23,869 nucleotides of DNA from a virus. Both the position numbers and the translations under genes were made by a program. Within the stretch, counting starts at the first letter, position 1, and each line of letters opens with the position of its first letter. Below the pieces are notes generated by a model. The model had not been told where the DNA came from. It searched no databases and was given only the letters and a program-made list of their open reading frames with translations. The stretch is from positions 1 through 23,869 of IMG/VR virus record IMGVR_UViG_3300010157_000252; one strand, given 5' to 3'. Positions 3,022 through 20,949 of the stretch are shown here, in pieces.

Positions 3022-3336
3022 TTACTTTTTAAAAGACGATGCTAAATTTATAAATTTACAGTTATCAAAATGATATCTATACATATTATTAATTCCTCCG
3101 GCTTTATCACAATGCGGGCATAATACAATTTCTCGTTTTTTACCAATTAATTTTAATACATGCTCTATTGATTTTTTCTTTCCTTTCATAGATTTAGATA
3201 TTTTAGAACATCTTAAAGGATCTTTAGAATGTAAACGCACAGATTCTAATCTATCTCCTGTATATTTAATTCCTTTATTCCATGGAATTTGTCCTTTATT
3301 AGCATCAGATAGTTTCTGTTTTGTTTCAGCTGTCAT
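3022..3336 (-). CDS. C-terminal part of the HNH endonuclease: NUMOD3 motif and zinc finger
   Basis: This is a 104-residue open frame. Its start is a NUMOD3 DNA-binding motif (ETKQKLSDANKG followed by WNKG), a module that lets HNH and GIY-YIG homing endonucleases contact DNA. Near the C-terminus is CPHC followed by YRYHFDNC, a Cys2-His-Cys-type zinc finger common at the end of phage homing endonucleases. The ATG used here is internal to the ancestral gene, so independent translation is doubtful. If it is translated, it would be a DNA-binding fragment without a nuclease centre. Confidence 0.5.
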   Translation of the reverse strand: MTAETKQKLSDANKGQIPWNKGIKYTGDRLESVRLHSKDPLRCSKISKSMKGKKKSIEHVLKLIGKKREIVLCPHCDKAGGINNMYRYHFDNCKFINLASSFKK

Positions 3337-3426
3337 AATTATGCCAGTACGTAAAATTTTAAGATTTTTAGCATGTAATTCTTTAGATTCTTGATATGTC
3401 TTGGAATTTGGAATATATCTATTAAC

Positions 3427-3681
3427 TCATTGTTTTCTTTGATTGCACATTCCCCAAAATGCAGCAGTAATACTAACATTTTCAGGATATAATCTAGCTA
3501 GTAACCAATGACATAGAAAGTGCTCTCTCCCTGTTAATAAAACTAAATTAGAATGTTCATTAGTACCTCCCATACATTTAGGAATAATATGATGTGACTC
3601 ATAATATATTTCAATACTTTTTTTCCTAATATCAGCCTTTGCTTTTTCTATTAATTGATCGTATATTTTTTTATAGTTCAT
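3427..3681 (-). CDS. N-terminal part of the HNH endonuclease: catalytic HNH domain
   Basis: This 84-residue frame begins after a 13-base gap from the ligase-fusion gene. It contains a full HNH (beta-beta-alpha metal) centre: ESHHIIPKCMGG with His30/His31, Asn45 in SNLVLL, and His54 and His58 in GREHFLCHW. The catalytic half therefore looks chemically intact. It ends at a TGA, while almost all neighbouring genes end in TAA. If expressed as it stands it would be a nuclease domain without its NUMOD3 targeting region, perhaps unstable or unspecific. Confidence 0.6.
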   Translation of the reverse strand: MNYKKIYDQLIEKAKADIRKKSIEIYYESHHIIPKCMGGTNEHSNLVLLTGREHFLCHWLLARLYPENVSITAAFWGMCNQRKQ

Positions 3682-8435: not shown

Positions 8436-11400
8436 CTAAACGTAATAGATTTTAGAACTTGTATTGTTTTTAGTAATTTCAATCAATTTATCTACTATAT
8501 CTTTCATTGAATCGATATGTGATATAACTAACATAAATGAAAATTGAGTTTTTAAATAATCAAATAAATTAAATATTGAATTTAAGTTATCAGAATCAAG
8601 TACTCCGAAACCTTCGTCAATAGCTAGGAAATTAGGTCTAGGCAATGAAGACACGTTTATCAATGCAGTTCTAATAGCTAAAGATGATATGAATTTTTCC
8701 ATACCAGATGTTAATTCAATTGACCAAAAATTGTCTTGATCATATACGATATAACAATTGATATTTTTGCCATCCATTTCAAGCATTAATTGAAATTCAA
8801 CTAACTGACTTAGTATGTTGTTAATTTCCTGTTCGATAAATGGAACTGCAGTTGTAATTAAATCGTAAGGAACTCCATCTCTATTAACTGCCTGTAAATA
8901 ATATTCATAAAACTTATACTGCTTTGTTAAGTCTTTTAATTTGATAATAGACTCTTCAGCTTTTTCTTTTAATTTTTCAGCAACTAACATATTTGAGTGA
9001 CATGATAAAATTTGATCATTTAAAATACTCAAATCTTCTTTTAATTTAGACACATCATCATTCAAATTGTTAATAACAGCTTTAATTGTTTTATTTTCTT
9101 TAATAGCAGCTTCTTTTTTAAAGTATTCACTGATTTGATGTTCTACTTCAGCTAACTTAGCAGCTAACTGATGCGGTTTAGAATTAATTTGATGTAAATT
9201 AGATTCGATAGAAGACTTTTCAATTTCTTTTGAATGAATATCTTTCTGCAACTTATTATAATCTTCCTTTTCTCTTAAAGAAGGAGCTAATTCAGCAATT
9301 TTTTCTTTAACTACATTTAATTTATCTACAATTTCTTGAGCAGACTTTTTATCTTCTTCAATTGAAGCTTTAGTAGCTATAGCATCTTTTACAAATACAT
9401 TATTCATGCAAAATATACAATTTTCATCATATTCTAAATCATTAAGTTTTTCCATCTTTTCCAACTTATGACTTACTTCTGCTTTGAGTTTTGCTACTTG
9501 CCCAACTAAAGTTTTTTCAGAATCTTTAACAGCATCTAAAACATTAATTTGTGCTTGAATTTTAGAAATATTATATTTTGCCAATTCAAATTTCAATACA
9601 GATATAGTATCTTCAACTTCAATTAATTCTTCTTTTCTGTTAGTAGAGTCTTCATTTAATGAAACAATCAACTTTTCAACTTTAGATTTTAATTCATTTA
9701 ATGAATCTATATTTTCAATTGAAACATCAATAGGAACTAAATCTGAAGTCAATGATAAAATCTTATCATTTATATTGTTAATTTTTAACTCTAACTCTGC
9801 TTTATCAAATTGATAATCTTTATGTTCTCTAGAATATGTGTCAATGTCTGTATTAGCCTGTGCTAATTGAGTACCAAAGTCTTGTCTCTGATACTCTTTA
9901 ACTAAAGTAGCTACTTCTTTAATATCATCGTTTGCAATTTTATATAAATCTTCAAATATATTAATATCTAAAAATTGAGCTAGCAAATCTTTACGATCTT
10001 TTTGAGCCATATCAATAAATCCAGAATTATTGTTTTGTACTGACAATGCAGTTAAAACAAAATCTTCATAGGTTCCTAGCAATTGTCTAATATGGTCGTT
10101 TGTCTCACTTCTTTCTTTACCATTTAGCGATTCTTTATTTCCTAAATCATCTACAGAATAAAAATCTACATCAACTCGAACATGGTTACCTCTTCCTTTA
10201 GTTCCTTTTTTTTCAATAAAATAATTTTTACTATCCAATTCAAAGTTAAATATACATTTGAATGAATCAGATTTATTATTCATTACAGAGGCAGCTTTAG
10301 AAGTTCTACCACATTTGTCAAATATACAATATGTAATAGAATCTAACATTGTTGACTTGCCTGAAGCGTTTGGAGCAAATATTCCATACACCCCTTTCAT
10401 ATTTGTAAAGTCAATTACATTGTCAGTGCCATAACTAAACATATTTGAAAATTCAAATCGTTTTGGAATCCAAGATACATTTCGATTTACTTCTAAATTA
10501 GGAAGGCTTGAATTAACTGTTCTATTTACATGACGAACGCCATCTAACATTTCGTCATCTAATGCAAATTTATTTTCTAAATATTTTGAAATTAATTCAT
10601 TTTGATATTCAACATCACGAACATCACCAATATTAATTTTTTGTACTCTAGATTTATTAACAGTAAAATCATTTATTTTTTGAATTGTAAATTCTTCAAT
10701 ATTAAATTTAGTTTTAATGTCTGCGACTATCGCTTTTAAGTCGGCAGGATCTGTATTTTGAACTTTAATTCGAAGTCGTATTGTTTTATTTTCTAAAGAA
10801 ACTGGAATTGGATTGAAATTTTTATTATCAATTTCCAATGTATAGTAACAAACATTGTTTTCAATTTCCACAAATTCTGCTTGACAAGTTTTTGTATCCC
10901 ATACTAACATTCCATGAATTAAAGCTTCTGCATAATTTTGTTGTATAAGACTGCCGCTATATTTTATAGCTGGTTTTATATGTTTTATTTTTTTAGTAGT
11001 TAATTTACTTTCATTAACTACTAATTCTTCACATGAATATTCTTGTAATGTTTGATTAGGTTTATGTATATCCCCTAACATACAAATCGAATATCCAGCA
11101 AATGTATCAACATCAACATTATCATTTACTAATTTAAACCCAATATCAGTTATTGCATTATTTACAGCTCCATGATGCAGTGCAATTTTAAAATCTCCTT
11201 CAAACGAACTTGCTTTTATAAAATCTTTAGGTTTATCAAAAACAGACATAACTACAAAATGTTTGTCAGCTAAATGATATATACCAGAATCTTTAAGATA
11301 ATGAAGATTTGGGTGATTTAAAGCATTAACAATTGGAGTTAAAGCATCTAATCTAGATTTATTGTTTAAATTACAATCGTGATTTCCAGTAATTAAAATA

Positions 11401-11657
11401 GTAGGAGCTATGTCAGAAAACATTTTAAAAAATTCCTGTACAGACTGCACTAATTCAGGAGTCATGTCTGTTTTAGCATGCACAATATCTCCTCCTAAAA
11501 AAATAATATCATTTGGGCCTTTAGTGCGTTTTATTTCATCTGCAGTACGCTGAAATACTATTTGATATTCAGCATGACGTTTTAAATTTCTAATATGTAT
11601 ATCGCTGATATGATATATTTTATCAATGGTATCTATTCCAATATTAATTCGCTTCAT
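8436..11657 (-). CDS. Mre11/SbcD nuclease fused to Rad50/SbcC ATPase (gp47-gp46 fusion)
   Basis: This 1073-residue protein does the work of two T4 proteins, gp47 and gp46, which process DNA ends for recombination-dependent replication. Residues 1-270 are a metallophosphoesterase: D19-I-H21, GGD (D57), GNHD (91-94), HH (161-162) and GDIH (195-198). From about 400 an ABC/SMC-type ATPase follows: Walker A APNASGKST (428-436), a long coiled coil broken by a zinc hook CIFC (747-750), a second coiled coil, signature TSGME (983-987), Walker B FLAIDEG (D1014, E1015) and switch His1047. All motifs are present, so the fusion looks active. Normally the two are separate subunits that meet near the ATPase heads. 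Its ATG overlaps the primase TAA by one base, suggesting coupled translation. It ends with TAG, the only one seen in the window. Confidence 0.95.
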   Translation of the reverse strand: MKRINIGIDTIDKIYHISDIHIRNLKRHAEYQIVFQRTADEIKRTKGPNDIIFLGGDIVHAKTDMTPELVQSVQEFFKMFSDIAPTILITGNHDCNLNNKSRLDALTPIVNALNHPNLHYLKDSGIYHLADKHFVVMSVFDKPKDFIKASSFEGDFKIALHHGAVNNAITDIGFKLVNDNVDVDTFAGYSICMLGDIHKPNQTLQEYSCEELVVNESKLTTKKIKHIKPAIKYSGSLIQQNYAEALIHGMLVWDTKTCQAEFVEIENNVCYYTLEIDNKNFNPIPVSLENKTIRLRIKVQNTDPADLKAIVADIKTKFNIEEFTIQKINDFTVNKSRVQKINIGDVRDVEYQNELISKYLENKFALDDEMLDGVRHVNRTVNSSLPNLEVNRNVSWIPKRFEFSNMFSYGTDNVIDFTNMKGVYGIFAPNASGKSTMLDSITYCIFDKCGRTSKAASVMNNKSDSFKCIFNFELDSKNYFIEKKGTKGRGNHVRVDVDFYSVDDLGNKESLNGKERSETNDHIRQLLGTYEDFVLTALSVQNNNSGFIDMAQKDRKDLLAQFLDINIFEDLYKIANDDIKEVATLVKEYQRQDFGTQLAQANTDIDTYSREHKDYQFDKAELELKINNINDKILSLTSDLVPIDVSIENIDSLNELKSKVEKLIVSLNEDSTNRKEELIEVEDTISVLKFELAKYNISKIQAQINVLDAVKDSEKTLVGQVAKLKAEVSHKLEKMEKLNDLEYDENCIFCMNNVFVKDAIATKASIEEDKKSAQEIVDKLNVVKEKIAELAPSLREKEDYNKLQKDIHSKEIEKSSIESNLHQINSKPHQLAAKLAEVEHQISEYFKKEAAIKENKTIKAVINNLNDDVSKLKEDLSILNDQILSCHSNMLVAEKLKEKAEESIIKLKDLTKQYKFYEYYLQAVNRDGVPYDLITTAVPFIEQEINNILSQLVEFQLMLEMDGKNINCYIVYDQDNFWSIELTSGMEKFISSLAIRTALINVSSLPRPNFLAIDEGFGVLDSDNLNSIFNLFDYLKTQFSFMLVISHIDSMKDIVDKLIEITKNNTSSKIYYV

Positions 11658-12604
11658 TATCTAAATAATTTATACTCAATAAATTTACTAAAAGTTAACG
11701 GCTGAGTTTCCTTAATTAACTTACACATTTTTTCAAATCCTATTTCAGCAGGATCTTTTTCTTTTAAATCTACAAAATACACTTCCACTCCATTATTCAT
11801 AAAATATTCTGCATGATCTAAAGCTTGCTTTTGGGCATCTTTATCTAAACAAATATATAATTGACTAACTTTATTTTCAATAATTTTTTTACGTAAATCT
11901 TCTGAAATTGTTTTTCCAAATAATGGAATTGCATTTCTTCTAACTGCAATAGCATCAAACGCGCCTTCTACTAAAACTAATGGAAGTGACCAGTTAATAA
12001 ATAATTCAAATCCTACACAATTTTTAGAAACTTCAGGATTTTTATGTTTAAATGTTTCTGCGTCGTAATAAGCTCTTCCTACAAAATAATTCAACTTACC
12101 AGTTTCATCATACGAAGGAATTATAATTTTTTTAGCATATTCTCCTGATTCACAATATCCAATATTATACTTTACAATTTCTGAAAGTGTTATTTTTCGC
12201 TTTGCTCTTAAATAATGTATTGCATTTTTATATTCAATAGATTCAGAATTTTTATATAGCGGAATGTACTCTTTAGGCAGGTCTATTACTGTCATACCTT
12301 GAAAGTTACTGTCAAATTGACTGCTACTATATTTTGGCTGGATGGAAAGTATTTTATAAAGTTCAGCTATTTTATCGCGACTTACATTTAATGACTTAAA
12401 CAGCGAAGTTAATTTTTTACCAGCTTTACTGCAAGTCCAACAATGCCATGGATTTTCTGATTTATTATTTGTTATAAGCTGTACTTCTAATTTTCTTTTG
12501 TTATGATGACAAAAAGGACAAAAAAATGCTATATTATTTCTATTTGTAATTTTTCCTTTACCTAGTACACTTTCTATTAATTGCGTTAATCTAGTATCTA
12601 TCAT
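11657..12604 (-). CDS. DnaG-type DNA primase with zinc finger and TOPRIM domain
   Basis: This is a 315-residue protein. An N-terminal zinc finger (CPFC at 29-32 and CWTC at 55-58) is the template-recognition module of bacterial and phage primases. A core follows with YNIGYCESGEY and IIIPSYDETGKLNYFVGRAYY, and then a TOPRIM domain with VEGAFDA (Glu213, Asp217) and CLDKDA (Asp254, Asp256), which holds the catalytic metals. There is no helicase domain, so it is a stand-alone primase like T4 gp61 and should work with a helicase encoded elsewhere. It would make RNA primers for lagging-strand synthesis. Its stop overlaps the start of the Mre11-Rad50 fusion. A 42-base gap with an A/T hairpin separates it from the endonuclease gene upstream. 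Confidence 0.9.
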   Translation of the reverse strand: MIDTRLTQLIESVLGKGKITNRNNIAFFCPFCHHNKRKLEVQLITNNKSENPWHCWTCSKAGKKLTSLFKSLNVSRDKIAELYKILSIQPKYSSSQFDSNFQGMTVIDLPKEYIPLYKNSESIEYKNAIHYLRAKRKITLSEIVKYNIGYCESGEYAKKIIIPSYDETGKLNYFVGRAYYDAETFKHKNPEVSKNCVGFELFINWSLPLVLVEGAFDAIAVRRNAIPLFGKTISEDLRKKIIENKVSQLYICLDKDAQKQALDHAEYFMNNGVEVYFVDLKEKDPAEIGFEKMCKLIKETQPLTFSKFIEYKLFR

Positions 12605-12646: not shown

Positions 12647-13054
12647 TTACTCGTCAAGCCATTCTTGCGGAATTATTTTTTCTGCCCACTTAAATCCATG
12701 CTTTTCTGCCCACATACTGTATGTAGTCTTTGAATTTTTATTAAATTTAGCATTTGCGTTTTGAAATAAAAACCGTATATCAAGTTCTGGATGTTGGTTT
12801 TTAATTAACAAGTGTTTTTTCTTATCATTTAATAAGAGGCGGCCTTTAGTTTCCACAAATATACCATTTGGTAATTTGAAATCAGGATGATATTTATGTT
12901 TAGTTTCCGGTTTGATATATTCAATAATGTGCTGTTCATATTCACCGTCAATTCCTTGACTTTTAAGAGAAGCGTCAATATCCATTTCTAAACCACTACG
13001 AAATCCGTATTTAGCTGCTACAGCTTTTTTGCTATATGTTTTTTTTCTTGCCAT
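12647..13054 (-). CDS. T7 endonuclease I-like Holliday junction resolvase
   Basis: From the ATG at 13054 this is a 135-residue protein. It carries the PD-ExK nuclease site of phage T7 endonuclease I: Glu23, Asp58 in HPDF, and Glu68-x-Lys70 in VETKG. The spacing (35, 10 and 2 residues) is the same as for T7 Glu20, Asp55, Glu65 and Lys67. Length is also close to the 149 residues of the T7 enzyme. Such enzymes cut branched DNA, resolving junctions and debranching DNA before packaging. The longer reading from 13105 adds 17 hydrophobic residues encoded inside the upstream gene. The ATG at 13054 sits 13 bases after that gene's TAA with an A-rich leader and starts with a basic MARKK. It is the first gene of the DNA-processing cassette. 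Confidence 0.9.
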   Translation of the reverse strand: MARKKTYSKKAVAAKYGFRSGLEMDIDASLKSQGIDGEYEQHIIEYIKPETKHKYHPDFKLPNGIFVETKGRLLLNDKKKHLLIKNQHPELDIRFLFQNANAKFNKNSKTTYSMWAEKHGFKWAEKIIPQEWLDE

Positions 13055-13067
13055 TTTATTTTTTAGT

Positions 13068-14852
13068 TTAAATGTCAAAACGAATAATAATATTAGTATC
13101 AACATTATCTCGTTTTTGAATTGGAGTTCCTAATTTACCTACAACTAACAATTGACCTGCGTCGTTATATAATCCTACTGTCGTAATATATGGAGCAAAT
13201 GAATCATTTAAAACAATGCTTTTTGGTATTTGTGAATTTACATCGTTATTTAATCTAATAGTTGGATTTGCAGTAAAATTAAACTCATCATCTTTTAATT
13301 TACATACATATTCGTGCTCGTATAAAGTTACTGTAGAATTAAATTCTAAGCTAAATTTAGAATTGTCAAAATAATTTGTAGGTGTTAATCCAGTATTTTT
13401 ATCGTATATAAAATTATTAAATGTTGCAGAAGACCCTGTAGAACTATATTTAGGTCTAGGATCTGAAATTACTATTAATCCATGTTCATAAAATACATTT
13501 CCAACGACATTAGTGTTTGTAGTCATTGAAAATGAGCCAGTGTCTGCTAACTGATTAATTTCATTTTGCGTTAATCCTTTATTAAAAATAAAAAATTCAT
13601 CAAATGTTCCTTTAAAAGAATTATATCCATTTCCATTTGAGTCTAATCCTAACGAACCTATAAATAAATCAGAATTGTTGTAAAAATTGCCATCAGATGG
13701 TAATGTAGCTTGATTTACTAAAGCCCCTCCAATGTACAATTGAAATATTGAGCCTGTTTTTTGTAATACTACATGATTTTCTGTGTTAGTTGTAAACGTT
13801 CCACTTACAATAGTTATTTTATTTCCATTGGAATTTTTACAATATATTTGATTAGCAGGAATTCCGCTCCCGCTAGGAAAATAAATATCAAATGGATATT
13901 GACTTGAATTATAGTTTACATCACCAGTATATACTTTTTTGTCAACCATATATTGGCCATTACCTGTAGTTCGTTTTGAAATTACTTGCTGAATTTCAGG
14001 AAAATTTGAATATTTTCCAATCCAAAATGACAATGCAAAATCATCAGTTTGTTTAAAATTAAATGAATCGTCATTTGGAATTCTAATGTAAGATGCTGTA
14101 GTAAAAAATGCATCATTACCCCAATTAAATATAGATCCTATAGATGATGTATAGTAATTATTTAAAAATGAAAAATTATTAATCCATGGATTACCTTTTG
14201 CAGTTAAATTAGGATTAATTGAATCAATTTGAAATTCAATTAAATTTCCTGGTTGCTGTGAACTTGTTAAATTAAAATTTGCTGCGTAATTAGAGCAATA
14301 TGTCATTGAATCAAATCCTAAATGTAGCACTTCTTTAGAAATAGAACTGCTTAAAGCAGTGTCAATTAAATTTCCCTTTCCATCGTCTATTAATGACATT
14401 GAAATTGCATTTAATGAAATATTTCTGTAATTCAATTTAACTGATCCTGGTTTAATAGATTCTCCAAATTTTCTTTGAGGTATCGAATAAACCATAGCTT
14501 CATTGAACAAAGTTCTTTTAATGGCATATGGATCAGCATAACCAAACGTTTCTGACGGTTTACCAGCTCGTTTATAATATAAATGATTTAAACTGTGCCA
14601 AATAACTGAGGCTTCTTTATTATTTGCGTTATTAATTAATAACGACCCTGAATCTAAAAAAGTTTGCCAAGTGTCAAGTGTAACTTTATTTCCTGAATAT
14701 ACATTTTGATTAGGTTTTAATGCGTATAGTAAATCTATTCCATCATTTTGTAAACTGCCTGTATTAGTATATTTCCATGACTTGTAAACTTTAAATGGCG
14801 TAATTGTTTGATCTTGCCCATTAATTCTTTTAAATACTCCCGGCTTTCCCAT
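13068..14852 (-). CDS. Tail protein with LamG-like domain and shared C-terminal module
   Basis: This 594-residue protein is a probable tail or baseplate component. Residues 80-145 contain YYKRAGKPSETFGYADP and SIPQRKFGESIKPGSV, segments I associate with conserved marine phage structural proteins. Residues about 250-440 form a LamG/concanavalin-like beta sandwich (FALSFWIGK, then LYIGGALVNQATLP and GTFDEFFIFNKGLTQNEI), typically a sugar-binding or structural fold. The last 100 residues (EYVCKLKDDEFNFTANP, YITTVGLYND, VGKLGTPIQK) are homologous to the end of the protein encoded at 14919-16193. Its ATG follows a strong hairpin that carries a promoter-like motif. The gene overlaps no neighbour once the endonuclease start is set at 13054. 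Confidence 0.8.
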   Translation of the reverse strand: MGKPGVFKRINGQDQTITPFKVYKSWKYTNTGSLQNDGIDLLYALKPNQNVYSGNKVTLDTWQTFLDSGSLLINNANNKEASVIWHSLNHLYYKRAGKPSETFGYADPYAIKRTLFNEAMVYSIPQRKFGESIKPGSVKLNYRNISLNAISMSLIDDGKGNLIDTALSSSISKEVLHLGFDSMTYCSNYAANFNLTSSQQPGNLIEFQIDSINPNLTAKGNPWINNFSFLNNYYTSSIGSIFNWGNDAFFTTASYIRIPNDDSFNFKQTDDFALSFWIGKYSNFPEIQQVISKRTTGNGQYMVDKKVYTGDVNYNSSQYPFDIYFPSGSGIPANQIYCKNSNGNKITIVSGTFTTNTENHVVLQKTGSIFQLYIGGALVNQATLPSDGNFYNNSDLFIGSLGLDSNGNGYNSFKGTFDEFFIFNKGLTQNEINQLADTGSFSMTTNTNVVGNVFYEHGLIVISDPRPKYSSTGSSATFNNFIYDKNTGLTPTNYFDNSKFSLEFNSTVTLYEHEYVCKLKDDEFNFTANPTIRLNNDVNSQIPKSIVLNDSFAPYITTVGLYNDAGQLLVVGKLGTPIQKRDNVDTNIIIRFDI

Positions 14853-16947: not shown

Positions 16948-19900
16948 TTATAATGATTTACTTTGAACTCCTGTCACTGACTGATCAATTGTAGTAATTT
17001 GGTTATTTGAAAATACTATTTGATTAGGATTAGTTTTAATTACCTTAACTACAGGCCCGCCATCTACAGTCGAAGGAGAATCAATATTAATTCCAGCGCC
17101 TGATAATTTAGATCCATTAAATTTAGAATTTAAGTGGCCTGTAGATTTGTTTAAATTAACTTCAGGATAATTATGATATTGAAATTTAGGTGAGTCGATA
17201 TGTACTCCATATCCGTATCCAACATAATAATCTGATAATATAATATCTGGTGTATAGCTAAAAAAAGAACTAGTGTAACTTCCATAACCTCCATAACCTC
17301 CAGAGTCGACAAGTATTGCTTGAATTAGTTGATTTAGACTATTATATACATATAAATAGTCAGGGTCTGTATCATACGCTCCTAAAAATGTTATTTGATA
17401 ATTTCCAGGCCCGTTTGGTAAATTTATTGATGCTGATGTTCCGATGTAACTAGCAGTTATATTATTTATCGCGTCCATGTTTGTTGGTATATACGGCAAT
17501 TTTCCATCTCGCAATTGAAGATCTATTCGACCGTGATTAATTATTCTATTTGAATTTCCATATGGAGCTGTTTTAGTTGATGTTGGATAATATGAACCTG
17601 ATTCAGTTATTTTGTATTTACCTATATATCTATGTTGCGACCAATGTGTATCTAATATATTAACAGAAGATATTGTTGAAATTAATCCTTGTAAACTTTC
17701 ATAATTACTGTAAACGTCTGGAGAATATGAAATTGCAGTCCCTTCAATTAAATTATATTCTGAAGCAATATTAAGTTGATATTTTTCAATGTATGCATTT
17801 TTAGATAAATCTTCAATTACAGGCTTATTAAGTAATTTAACTTTACTTCTTTCTAAAACGTTTGGTTCAATAACTAAACCTATTATTGAATTAGCTCTTT
17901 GAGGAAGAAGTTGTTTAATATACTTAAATAGCGTAAAATCGTATATTTGTAATGCTCTAAAATAAGCTTCAAAATCATTTCGATTGTCATATTTTTTCCA
18001 ATATTGAATTGCAAAATTATTTAAATCTGTGTAATGATCGCTGTAAACGTCTCCGGGATTTCCAATGTAATCGTCAATTTCAAAATATCCAAATTGATTG
18101 AAAATATCTTCATTGATTGCAGTTTGCGGAGAAAAATAAACTCCTAATCGATTTGAATCGATTGAATATCTGTCAAATGATGATTTTTCAATTCGAGTTT
18201 TAGTATTTAATCTTTTATTAGAATCTAATGAAGCTGATTCAATTCGAACTTTATTTGTATATAAACTAGATCCTCCTAGAGAAGGAGATGGAGTGTAATA
18301 CGTTTCTTCAAAAGCATCAAAAATAATTTGCGAACTAGATGAAATTTGATTAAAATAAATTGATCCTGTATTTATAGTTTGGTTAGGATGTGCTGAAATT
18401 TGATAATACTGCCCTGAACTACTTTGAATTTGTTGAGAAGTTAATGTAAATCGATTTAATAAATTTTTATATGCGGCATCTCCTTGAGACCCATTCGTAT
18501 TATTAATTCTGTCAACATTGTATGTATATGATGAAGGAGACGCAGCATGCTCTTCTAACGAATTTGAATTAATTGAGCCAGACCATAATCGAATTTCTTG
18601 AAAATGTCCTATAAATTTATTTGAACCAGTAGCAAAATAAATGTTTTCGGAAGTTGTAAATAATCCAGACCCGGTGCTAAAAAATGAACTAGAATTGTAT
18701 ACAGTTTTTCCATATAACGATTTAACTACTTGCAAACTAGCTGAACTATTATGTAAATTAGTTAATGCAATTTGATGCCATGAATTATCAAATATTTCTA
18801 AATTATTTAAACTGCCACTTTGACCATTAACAGAATAAGTTAATGTACCTTGATTATCAGTCGACGTTTCTTTAGTTAAAGACAATGTACTTCCAGAAGT
18901 TCGTAATATTATGTAAGTAGACCCGGAAGTGTATGTAACAGAATCTTCAGTTTTAAATCGAAATTCTAAAACATCTGGATAAATTACATTGCTGTCTGCA
19001 TTAATGTAAGATTTTGACGGAATTAATAAACTTGCTGAAATTGAATTCCATGCATAATGATATACGTTATGAACATATTCTGGATATTGATCATTATCAG
19101 TGAATGTTGAAGGTCCTCCATATTCTTTAATTGTTAAAATTGTTGAAGGTATTCCAAAGCATGCAAGAAGAGCTTTAATTGATCTAGAAGTTCCTTTTGA
19201 TTTTAAAATGTAAGGTAAATTATTAACTAATCTTCTCCAAATTTCTTTTGTGTTAGTTTCATCTGATAGCGAATTAATTCCATTTACATCATTTTGAAGT
19301 GCGGCTCCATTTTCATCAACACCTAAAGAATATCTCCATAATTCAGAAGAAGATTTTCCATTTAATAAATCAAAGCCCATTGACGATGCTACATGATGCA
19401 GTAAATCGTTTGGCATTCCATCTTTAGGATGTTCTTCTCGAGTATGAATTGTCGTTAAATTTTTAATATACGTCCATAAAATATCAAAATGCTGGGCTAT
19501 CATATTAATAAACAATACGTATTGATCATCTTCAGAATCTTGAATGAAAGATGGTATAGTATTTTGAAGTTTATGTATATTAAATTTATCATATATTGAA
19601 GCAATATCTAGTAAATTATTATAATATTCAGTAGCTACATCAGAATTAACAGATTGCTGAATAGAAAAATATTCATATGGATCGGCGTTCCATAGTGATG
19701 AAGCAGCTGACCATAATTCATAAGCAGTTGCCCAAGTGTAATTTGCAGTGCTTGTTGATTTAGGCCATGGATTAATTGAGCTAGTTATTCCATATGAACT
19801 AGATACATTGTAAAATGTATATAGAGTAGATCCTGTAGTTTCAAAAAATAAATATTTTTCAAAATTATCAAATACGCTGACTACTTTATTTCGCTTTGAA

Positions 19901-20949
19901 TATAAATCAGATAAATTTGCATTAATTGCAGAATTTGAACCGCTAATATTTAATACTGATTGAATTTGGCTAGTATAATATTCAATTAATTCTAATTTGT
20001 ATTTGAAATTTTTAACTCTTTCTACTGCAGAACTATAATGTATAAAATTATCAAAATATCTATAATCAATATTTAATTGTATTCCAGATAAAGACCCGGA
20101 AAAATAATTATCGATAATTTGTTGCGATGTTGAAACGTTTGTAGATAATAAATCGTTCCAAGATTTAAATGATGTTGCTACTGAGCCTCCTTCATATTCA
20201 TCTAAATTAAAATTTGGACCAGCTAATGTAGTAATAGGTTCTGGTACATGTTTAGGAATAATTAAGACTGAATCTAAAAATGGAGTAAGTATTTCTTCAG
20301 AAATAAAAACTTTAGATTTTTTACCATATTTTGCTGGTAACGGTTCGTATAATTTAACAAATATTTCTGGAGTGTCCGTATTTTCAAATTCAAACCGAAA
20401 ATTAATAATTTGGTACGTTTCATTAAATCCAAAATTTAATATAAATGAATCAAAAATGTCATCTCTTTCTAATTCGGCCCATCGATTTCTTAATCTAATT
20501 AATTGCCCTCGCAACTGCATATTAGCTGATTCAACTAATTGCAGTCTTAATTCTCTTCTAGAAGGGGAAATATCTTTTATAAAAAGTTTCTGAGAGTCAA
20601 ATCCTCCTAATATATTATCAAATAAATTATATACTATTCGATATTGTCCTTTATTAATTCCTAAAGTTTCTAACTCTTTAGATGTATTAATTGCTAAATG
20701 TTTATATGCATTTAATTGAGTATCAGTATTAGTATCTTCAATTGTAAATAATGCATTATGATTACCAGTTAAATAAATTCCATCTGGAGTATATACATGT
20801 AATTCTAAATTAGCTCTAGTATTTTGTTTAAATGTAATTGAAAAATTTCGAATATCTAAAAGTTGTTGGTCAATAACTTCTAATCTAGATACTTCAGTAG
20901 TGCTAGTTGCTTTTAATAAGTCGTTTTGATTTGTATATATTGATAACAT
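16948..20949 (-). CDS. Giant tail/baseplate protein with P2 gpI-like region and LamG-like domain
   Basis: This 1333-residue protein is the largest in the window. Residues 1 to about 230 are beta-rich. Residues about 450-615 resemble phage tail protein I (P2 gpI, Tail_P2_I): a helical start (NTIPSFIQDSEDDQYVLFIN), LLHHVASSMGFDL and then NLPYILKSKGTSRSIKALL, FGIP. In contractile tails such proteins sit at the baseplate between wedge and fibre. Residues about 640-800 are LamG/concanavalin-like (VLEFRFKTED, DNSWHQIALT, FIGHFQEIRLW). A third region, about 905-1060, includes RYSIDSNRLGVYFSPQTAINEDIF and YFEIDDYIG, and a Tyr/Gly-rich tail follows. T4 gp7 is similarly large, but homology to it cannot be seen here. 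It starts 12 bases after the coiled-coil gene. Confidence 0.8.
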   Translation of the reverse strand: MLSIYTNQNDLLKATSTTEVSRLEVIDQQLLDIRNFSITFKQNTRANLELHVYTPDGIYLTGNHNALFTIEDTNTDTQLNAYKHLAINTSKELETLGINKGQYRIVYNLFDNILGGFDSQKLFIKDISPSRRELRLQLVESANMQLRGQLIRLRNRWAELERDDIFDSFILNFGFNETYQIINFRFEFENTDTPEIFVKLYEPLPAKYGKKSKVFISEEILTPFLDSVLIIPKHVPEPITTLAGPNFNLDEYEGGSVATSFKSWNDLLSTNVSTSQQIIDNYFSGSLSGIQLNIDYRYFDNFIHYSSAVERVKNFKYKLELIEYYTSQIQSVLNISGSNSAINANLSDLYSKRNKVVSVFDNFEKYLFFETTGSTLYTFYNVSSSYGITSSINPWPKSTSTANYTWATAYELWSAASSLWNADPYEYFSIQQSVNSDVATEYYNNLLDIASIYDKFNIHKLQNTIPSFIQDSEDDQYVLFINMIAQHFDILWTYIKNLTTIHTREEHPKDGMPNDLLHHVASSMGFDLLNGKSSSELWRYSLGVDENGAALQNDVNGINSLSDETNTKEIWRRLVNNLPYILKSKGTSRSIKALLACFGIPSTILTIKEYGGPSTFTDNDQYPEYVHNVYHYAWNSISASLLIPSKSYINADSNVIYPDVLEFRFKTEDSVTYTSGSTYIILRTSGSTLSLTKETSTDNQGTLTYSVNGQSGSLNNLEIFDNSWHQIALTNLHNSSASLQVVKSLYGKTVYNSSSFFSTGSGLFTTSENIYFATGSNKFIGHFQEIRLWSGSINSNSLEEHAASPSSYTYNVDRINNTNGSQGDAAYKNLLNRFTLTSQQIQSSSGQYYQISAHPNQTINTGSIYFNQISSSSQIIFDAFEETYYTPSPSLGGSSLYTNKVRIESASLDSNKRLNTKTRIEKSSFDRYSIDSNRLGVYFSPQTAINEDIFNQFGYFEIDDYIGNPGDVYSDHYTDLNNFAIQYWKKYDNRNDFEAYFRALQIYDFTLFKYIKQLLPQRANSIIGLVIEPNVLERSKVKLLNKPVIEDLSKNAYIEKYQLNIASEYNLIEGTAISYSPDVYSNYESLQGLISTISSVNILDTHWSQHRYIGKYKITESGSYYPTSTKTAPYGNSNRIINHGRIDLQLRDGKLPYIPTNMDAINNITASYIGTSASINLPNGPGNYQITFLGAYDTDPDYLYVYNSLNQLIQAILVDSGGYGGYGSYTSSFFSYTPDIILSDYYVGYGYGVHIDSPKFQYHNYPEVNLNKSTGHLNSKFNGSKLSGAGINIDSPSTVDGGPVVKVIKTNPNQIVFSNNQITTIDQSVTGVQSKSL

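Follow-up and report, generated by a model that had tools for sequence, protein, structure and literature searches.

A single-chain Mre11-Rad50 fusion of aquatic phages with a putative scar of gene splitting and rejoining beside its nuclease site

The window analysed here is a 23,869-nucleotide stretch of an IMG/VR virus record (GC content, 29%). Its minus strand encodes a single-chain Mre11-Rad50 (SbcD-SbcC) fusion, identified from ORF, Pfam, PHROGs, NCBIfam and motif evidence. The ORF starts with ATG and runs from position 11657 to 8436 including the stop codon, encoding 1073 amino acids with zero internal stops. Pfam, PHROGs and NCBIfam put a calcineurin-like phosphoesterase within residues 1-180 and, from about residue 400 to the end, a Rad50/SbcC ATPase, the order seen in R555-type proteins. 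Individual profile matches include Metallophos (Pfam, residues 13-178, E = 4.7e-9), AAA_23 (Pfam, residues 404-638, E = 3.8e-14), PHROG 77 (SbcC, residues 399-1070, E = 2.2e-56) and a weak match to the SbcC Walker B profile (Pfam, residues 983-1033).

The Mre11/SbcD-like metallophosphoesterase domain covers approximately residues 1-242 (10932..11657, minus strand; Pfam, motifs and fold model). It contains D19-I-H21, G56-D57, GNHD (91-94), HH (161-162) and GDIH (195-198), which together represent all metal-binding motifs of the Mre11/SbcD nuclease (DxH, GD, GNHD, H[HG] and GxH) and lie at the residues listed in a preliminary description of this DNA. D19, H21, D57, GNHD, H162 and GDIH are invariant in an alignment of 43 relatives.

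The Rad50/SbcC-like ATPase with its coiled coils covers residues 396-1073 (8439..10472, minus strand; Pfam AAA_23, phrog_77 and PDB matches to Rad50, SbcC and SMC). Alignment places a Walker A motif (APNASGKS, residues 428-435, 10353..10376), a CxxC zinc hook (CIFC, residues 747-750, 9408..9419), an ABC signature (TSGME, residues 983-987, 8697..8711) and a Walker B motif with the catalytic glutamate (FLAIDE, residues 1010-1015, 8613..8630), all on the minus strand, with the zinc hook and signature also placed by motif position. Both zinc-hook cysteines are invariant across the 43 sequences. The preliminary description had named these four motifs, and two of them turn out to be variants. The first glycine of Walker A is replaced by alanine, a departure from canonical GxxxxGK[ST] that is kept in the 43 aligned relatives, clade-wide and in Microcystis phage Mel-JY01; we read it as a Walker A variant rather than a loss, with the GKS core retained. 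The signature departs from canonical SGGE/Q, and TSGME is likewise kept in the 43 aligned relatives, with SGME also found in the fused phage proteins of PTm1, LR756501 and Mel-JY01.

A fold model of the window protein (mean pLDDT 76.6, pTM 0.41; safe at the domain level only) places an Mre11 capping domain at residues 249-327 (10677..10913, by secondary structure), a helix-loop-helix at 349-383 (10509..10613), a linker of about 12 residues at 384-395 (10473..10508) and the first Rad50 strand from residue 396, all on the minus strand, with long helices at 567-924. Its best PDB fold matches include Mre11-Rad50 and SbcCD as well as Rad50, SbcC and SMC. The ordinary Mre11-Rad50 complex is M2R2, and the earlier argument that fusion fixes a 1:1 ratio therefore adds little. 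The helix-loop-helix is the expected Rad50-binding motif, by analogy with the T. maritima MR complex (PMC3175470). A cap and helix-loop-helix followed by a linker of 9-12 residues ahead of Rad50 is the R555-type arrangement, and a linker of this length has been deduced to be enough for normal Mre11-Rad50 geometry (Yoshida, Claverie and Ogata, 2011; PMC3175470). Because the modelled linker matches that range, the fusion probably preserves ordinary assembly, rather than altering how the dimer assembles as had been proposed, and the protein most likely remains an ordinary M2R2 machine.

The gene immediately upstream encodes a DnaG-type primase (Toprim; 11657..12604, minus strand; Pfam and PHROGs) and overlaps the fusion start codon. 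The primase-fusion gene order also occurs in Mel-JY01 and LR756508. A T7-type endonuclease I (Holliday junction resolvase) follows at 12647..13105 on the same strand (Pfam Phage_endo_I, E = 3.2e-53). Judged from family and genomic context, two chains most likely pair as the usual M2R2, which would process DNA ends in support of recombination-dependent replication. Elsewhere in the window, a 1333-aa tail-region protein (16948-20949) has no Pfam match at E 0.1, and a very large gene occupies the same place in Mel-JY01. On the minus strand at 3022-3681, two ORFs (84 and 104 aa, phrog_655) represent a decayed HNH/NUMOD3 homing endonuclease directly downstream of a 652-aa nucleotidyltransferase-like gene. 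Both the remnant and this gene end in SSFKK, as if the end of the nucleotidyltransferase-like gene had been duplicated or displaced.

Fusions of this kind are not new. Work by Yoshida, Claverie and Ogata (2011) had already documented them in Mimivirus (R555), plasmids, bacteria, eukaryotes and Bacillus phage 0305phi8-36, and many aquatic homologs were assigned to phages from the SPO1/Twort-type primases and T7-type endonucleases on their scaffolds (PMC3175470); the window shares this SPO1-type primase and T7-type endonuclease neighbourhood. With a looser profile we identified at least 561 IMG/VR stretches that encode relatives, following 24 close loci in a first search. Among phage records, tblastn returned full-length fused relatives in Mel-JY01 (41.6%) and in two huge metagenomic phages, one of 735 kb and one of 484 kb whose copy of the gene is split; Tenacibaculum phages gave more distant matches. 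A scan of the cellular genome collection returned a single bin with a relative (L113), probably through a phage contig binned into the MAG. The fusion thus belongs to a known and abundant aquatic-phage family with hundreds of members; the preliminary description was right that it is real and overstated how unusual it is. The window is a 23.9-kb fragment, and a second, separate Mre11/Rad50 may lie elsewhere in the same phage.

The window protein resembles R555-type fusions in its N-terminal Mre11, cap and helix-loop-helix, short linker and C-terminal Rad50 with coiled coil, and the best viral fold matches of its model are R555-type giant-virus proteins. It differs in being only ~25% identical to the Tupanvirus member, in its alanine-initiated Walker A and SGME signature, and in 21 extra residues after GDIH. 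T4 gp47/gp46, T5 D12/D13 and kayvirus SbcD/SbcC comprise the same two enzymes, with the same expected recombination-replication role and a primase or resolvase in the gene neighbourhood, but are encoded by two separate genes with only distant sequence similarity. E. coli SbcCD and the archaeal and human Mre11-Rad50 complexes share the fold, motifs and M2R2 logic, while consisting of separate chains with 12-16% identity in the fold matches.

Several observations bear on whether the fusion is an artefact of assembly or of a missed stop or frameshift. The whole fusion lies in one intact ORF in 91 fetched loci, among them the deposited phage genome Mel-JY01 (PP395634), which already refutes an assembly error and leaves the artefact reading with a negligible probability. 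The preliminary description had pointed to residues 270-400 as the place where a stop or frameshift would undermine a single chain, and none was seen there. Relatives are indeed broken, but near residue 203. Conservation across relatives also gives no support to an internal start for a separate Rad50: other start codons in the 370-405 stretch lack conservation, and the sole invariant internal methionine, Met 406, falls within the first strand of the ATPase. The six minus-strand gene starts checked in the window have no clear Shine-Dalgarno sequence upstream, so a missing ribosome-binding site says nothing either way about such a start. Comparison of the window with its closest relative, L006, indicates purifying selection in both halves (dN/dS ~0.12 for Mre11 and ~0.15 for Rad50).

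The preliminary description overlooked an insert beside the nuclease site. The window protein is 21 residues longer directly after the catalytic GDIH; these residues, encoded in frame, expand the loop at residues 203-233 (TLQEYSCEELVVNESKLTTKKIKHIKPAIKY; 10959..11051, minus strand; recognised from loop lengths, split relatives and a permutation test). The stretch from GDIH to GS-x-[IVL]-Q is 14-15 residues in 97 loci and 36 residues only in the window, L005 and L009. L005 and L009 are contigs of the window's population from separate samples, so an assembly error is unlikely for the insert. The insert is predicted to be disordered (pLDDT < 50 at residues 207-227), with no tail structure visible in the fold model. 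It could lower the nuclease activity of the window protein, given its position beside the metal site.

A relative approximately 85% identical to the window protein (L021) has its gene broken exactly at the insert site. Its 5′ ORF ends in GDIHKPNQTLQEYSYEELEIDEIDLDRYLKEGWECM followed by a stop, endonuclease remains come next, and a second ORF opens with NKKIRIKRVKPGIKYVGSLIQQN. The window reads GDIHKPNQTLQEYSCEELVVNESKLTTKKIKHIKPAIKYSGSLIQQN, which corresponds to L021-type tails joined together, minus the end of the first tail, the stop and the start. The window loop matches the joined L021/L032 tails at z = 11 against shuffles, and scores z = -0.6 with the intact L006 (permutation test). The split allele in the window clade has the tail opening TLQEYS.EEL, the same as in the window, and the tail's helix segment, YLKEGWE, is missing from the window insert. 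On the tree, the scarred window, the intact L006 and the split L021 group in a single clade with support of 97/88. A split counterpart nearly identical to the window itself was not found.

We identified at least 15 distinct contigs in which fused or unfused genes are split at this position, giving two ORFs whose peptide tails are conserved (L002, L021, L030, L031, L032, L034, L035, L122/L149/L165, L129, L137, L154, L155, L156, L161 and L168), although the locus of L031 stops inside the tail and a few other cases have a 3′ piece that leaves the contig or was traced no further. The pieces are separated by zinc-ribbon homing endonucleases (HNH, Vsr-like or TnsA-like), by their remains, or by nothing, the last in L035 and L129, whose two ORFs are adjacent or overlapping. 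The pieces are under purifying selection, as are the tails (pN 0.21 versus pS 0.48, and pN 0.34 versus pS 0.76), which argues that split alleles are not dead genes. The split L032 pairs with the intact L014 on the tree, and such switches of state between close relatives (L021/L006 and L032/L014) are as expected of homing. Comparison of these alleles thus points to the codons after GDIH as a place where phage Mre11 genes break repeatedly, an observation that is new here, though an earlier report may exist beyond the open literature.

Unfused Mre11 genes are also split at the same GDIH site by zinc-ribbon homing endonucleases (L122/L149/L165 and L155), which implies a homing site older or wider than the fusion. 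The endonucleases of L137, L155, L161, L165, L168 and L002 have a common zinc-ribbon/NUMOD front and differing nuclease domains (HNH, Vsr-like or TnsA-like). This pattern suggests that nuclease domains have been swapped behind a common target-binding part. In L006 (9313-10119), and also in L036, a 268-aa endonuclease-like ORF lies just downstream of the fusion. The L006 ORF ends with a copy of the fusion's last 30 residues (NISHIDSMRDVVDKLIEITKTNGNSKIYYV), and the fusion's own C-terminus has diverged. This arrangement appears to mark a second site of insertion, at the fusion gene's 3′ end.

Searches with the tails themselves returned the same position. Two degenerate patterns of the first tail, run over all IMG/VR, matched only at the post-GDIH site, within the limits of a search that catches only tails close to the pattern. 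A third, looser pattern again returned this site in fused and unfused Mre11, plus one unrelated AAA family; we rejected the latter matches as coincidence, because in that single homologous family the peptide lies in mid-protein. Pfam gave no match to the tails alone. A short-peptide tblastn of the tail against phages also gave no match, and it missed the known LR756508 tail, hence is uninformative.

A second, distant fused lineage (L127/L176) carries both tails in frame within a 1079-aa ORF. Its split near-twin, L154, has an HNH remnant in the gap, comparable to the end of the L161 endonuclease, and what distinguishes the two junctions is a deletion at a short repeat, GAAGAAA. This pair provides what looks to be the clearest case of the rejoining step that we propose for the window, and re-fusion seems to have occurred in at least two lineages, the window's and that of L127/L176. 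A fold of L127, predicted to look for a tail domain, has low confidence past residue 219.

Taken at the sequence level, these comparisons make it probable that the window encodes a working single-chain Mre11-Rad50 of the known aquatic-phage family whose Mre11 half derives from a split allele, later rejoined, with a scar kept. An ancestral allele would have been split just past the catalytic GDIH by a free-standing homing endonuclease gene. Through this insertion the 5′ piece would have gained a peptide tail at its end and the 3′ piece a further one at its start. Later, the stop and the second start would have disappeared along with the endonuclease gene, and the pieces would have been rejoined in frame, such that parts of both tails persist as the 21-residue insert near the active site. 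We infer this order of events in the window lineage, from split to re-fused, as well as the biochemical activity of the protein.

Simple growth of the loop after GDIH in an ordinary fusion, with a coincidental likeness to the tails or with an ancestral loop, would also account for an insert that is in frame in an otherwise normal and conserved protein. We consider this improbable given the 97 intact loci with loops of 14-15 residues, the z = 11 match to the L021/L032 tails, and the clade's closest relatives, among which a split allele shares the tail opening. Restoration of split alleles by RNA or protein splicing, through a group I intron or intein and with no true gene-in-pieces stage, has a precedent in the many group I introns that split essential genes in Jug phages (PMC12363816). 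Such restoration is highly improbable here, since no Rfam intron was detected in the interrupted loci scanned, no intein or other splice ends were found, and the tails are conserved as protein rather than RNA. The adjacent or overlapping pieces in L035 and L129 moreover leave no room for an intron and nothing to splice.

A different question is whether the insert is a neutral scar. General homing logic, in which endonucleases insert at the codons of highly conserved motifs and altered alleles should resist cutting (PMC2988022), raises the alternative that the insert is kept as it removes the endonuclease target and immunises the gene against re-invasion. Intact alleles with an uninterrupted site outnumber scarred ones, and we regard immunity as a rather unlikely reason for the insert's retention.

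Genes in pieces created by free-standing homing endonucleases have been reviewed for Aeh1 nrdA/mobE, T4 gene 60/mobA and phage 25 gene 43 (PMC2988022). As in Aeh1 nrdA/mobE-type cases, the proposed rejoining history involves a homing endonuclease gene that, unaccompanied by an intron, interrupts an essential gene at a critical position, with the pieces staying under selection; for the ancestral allele of the window, relatives show an intron-free split by a homing endonuclease gene at precisely this site. The history differs in that the Mre11 site is the GDIH motif, used across many phages by endonucleases of several types, and in that at least two Mre11 lineages have apparently been rejoined with tails left in frame. 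A broader model, which we put forward tentatively and at slightly less than even odds, is that the GDIH codons of phage Mre11, fused or not, serve as a homing site across a wide span of phages. Alleles would cycle from intact to split with an endonuclease, to split without one, and to re-fused with the tails as an insert, the stage represented by the window. The tails would then be a candidate assembly module that keeps a nuclease cut at its active site working.

The series of split and rejoined alleles at one catalytic motif would capture, in nature, the intermediate steps by which a selfish endonuclease breaks a gene that is then restored. It opens a direct test of whether an Mre11 cut beside its metal site works and whether mobile-element tails hold the pieces together. 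It also suggests that phage Mre11 genes may be annotated as two unrelated ORFs.
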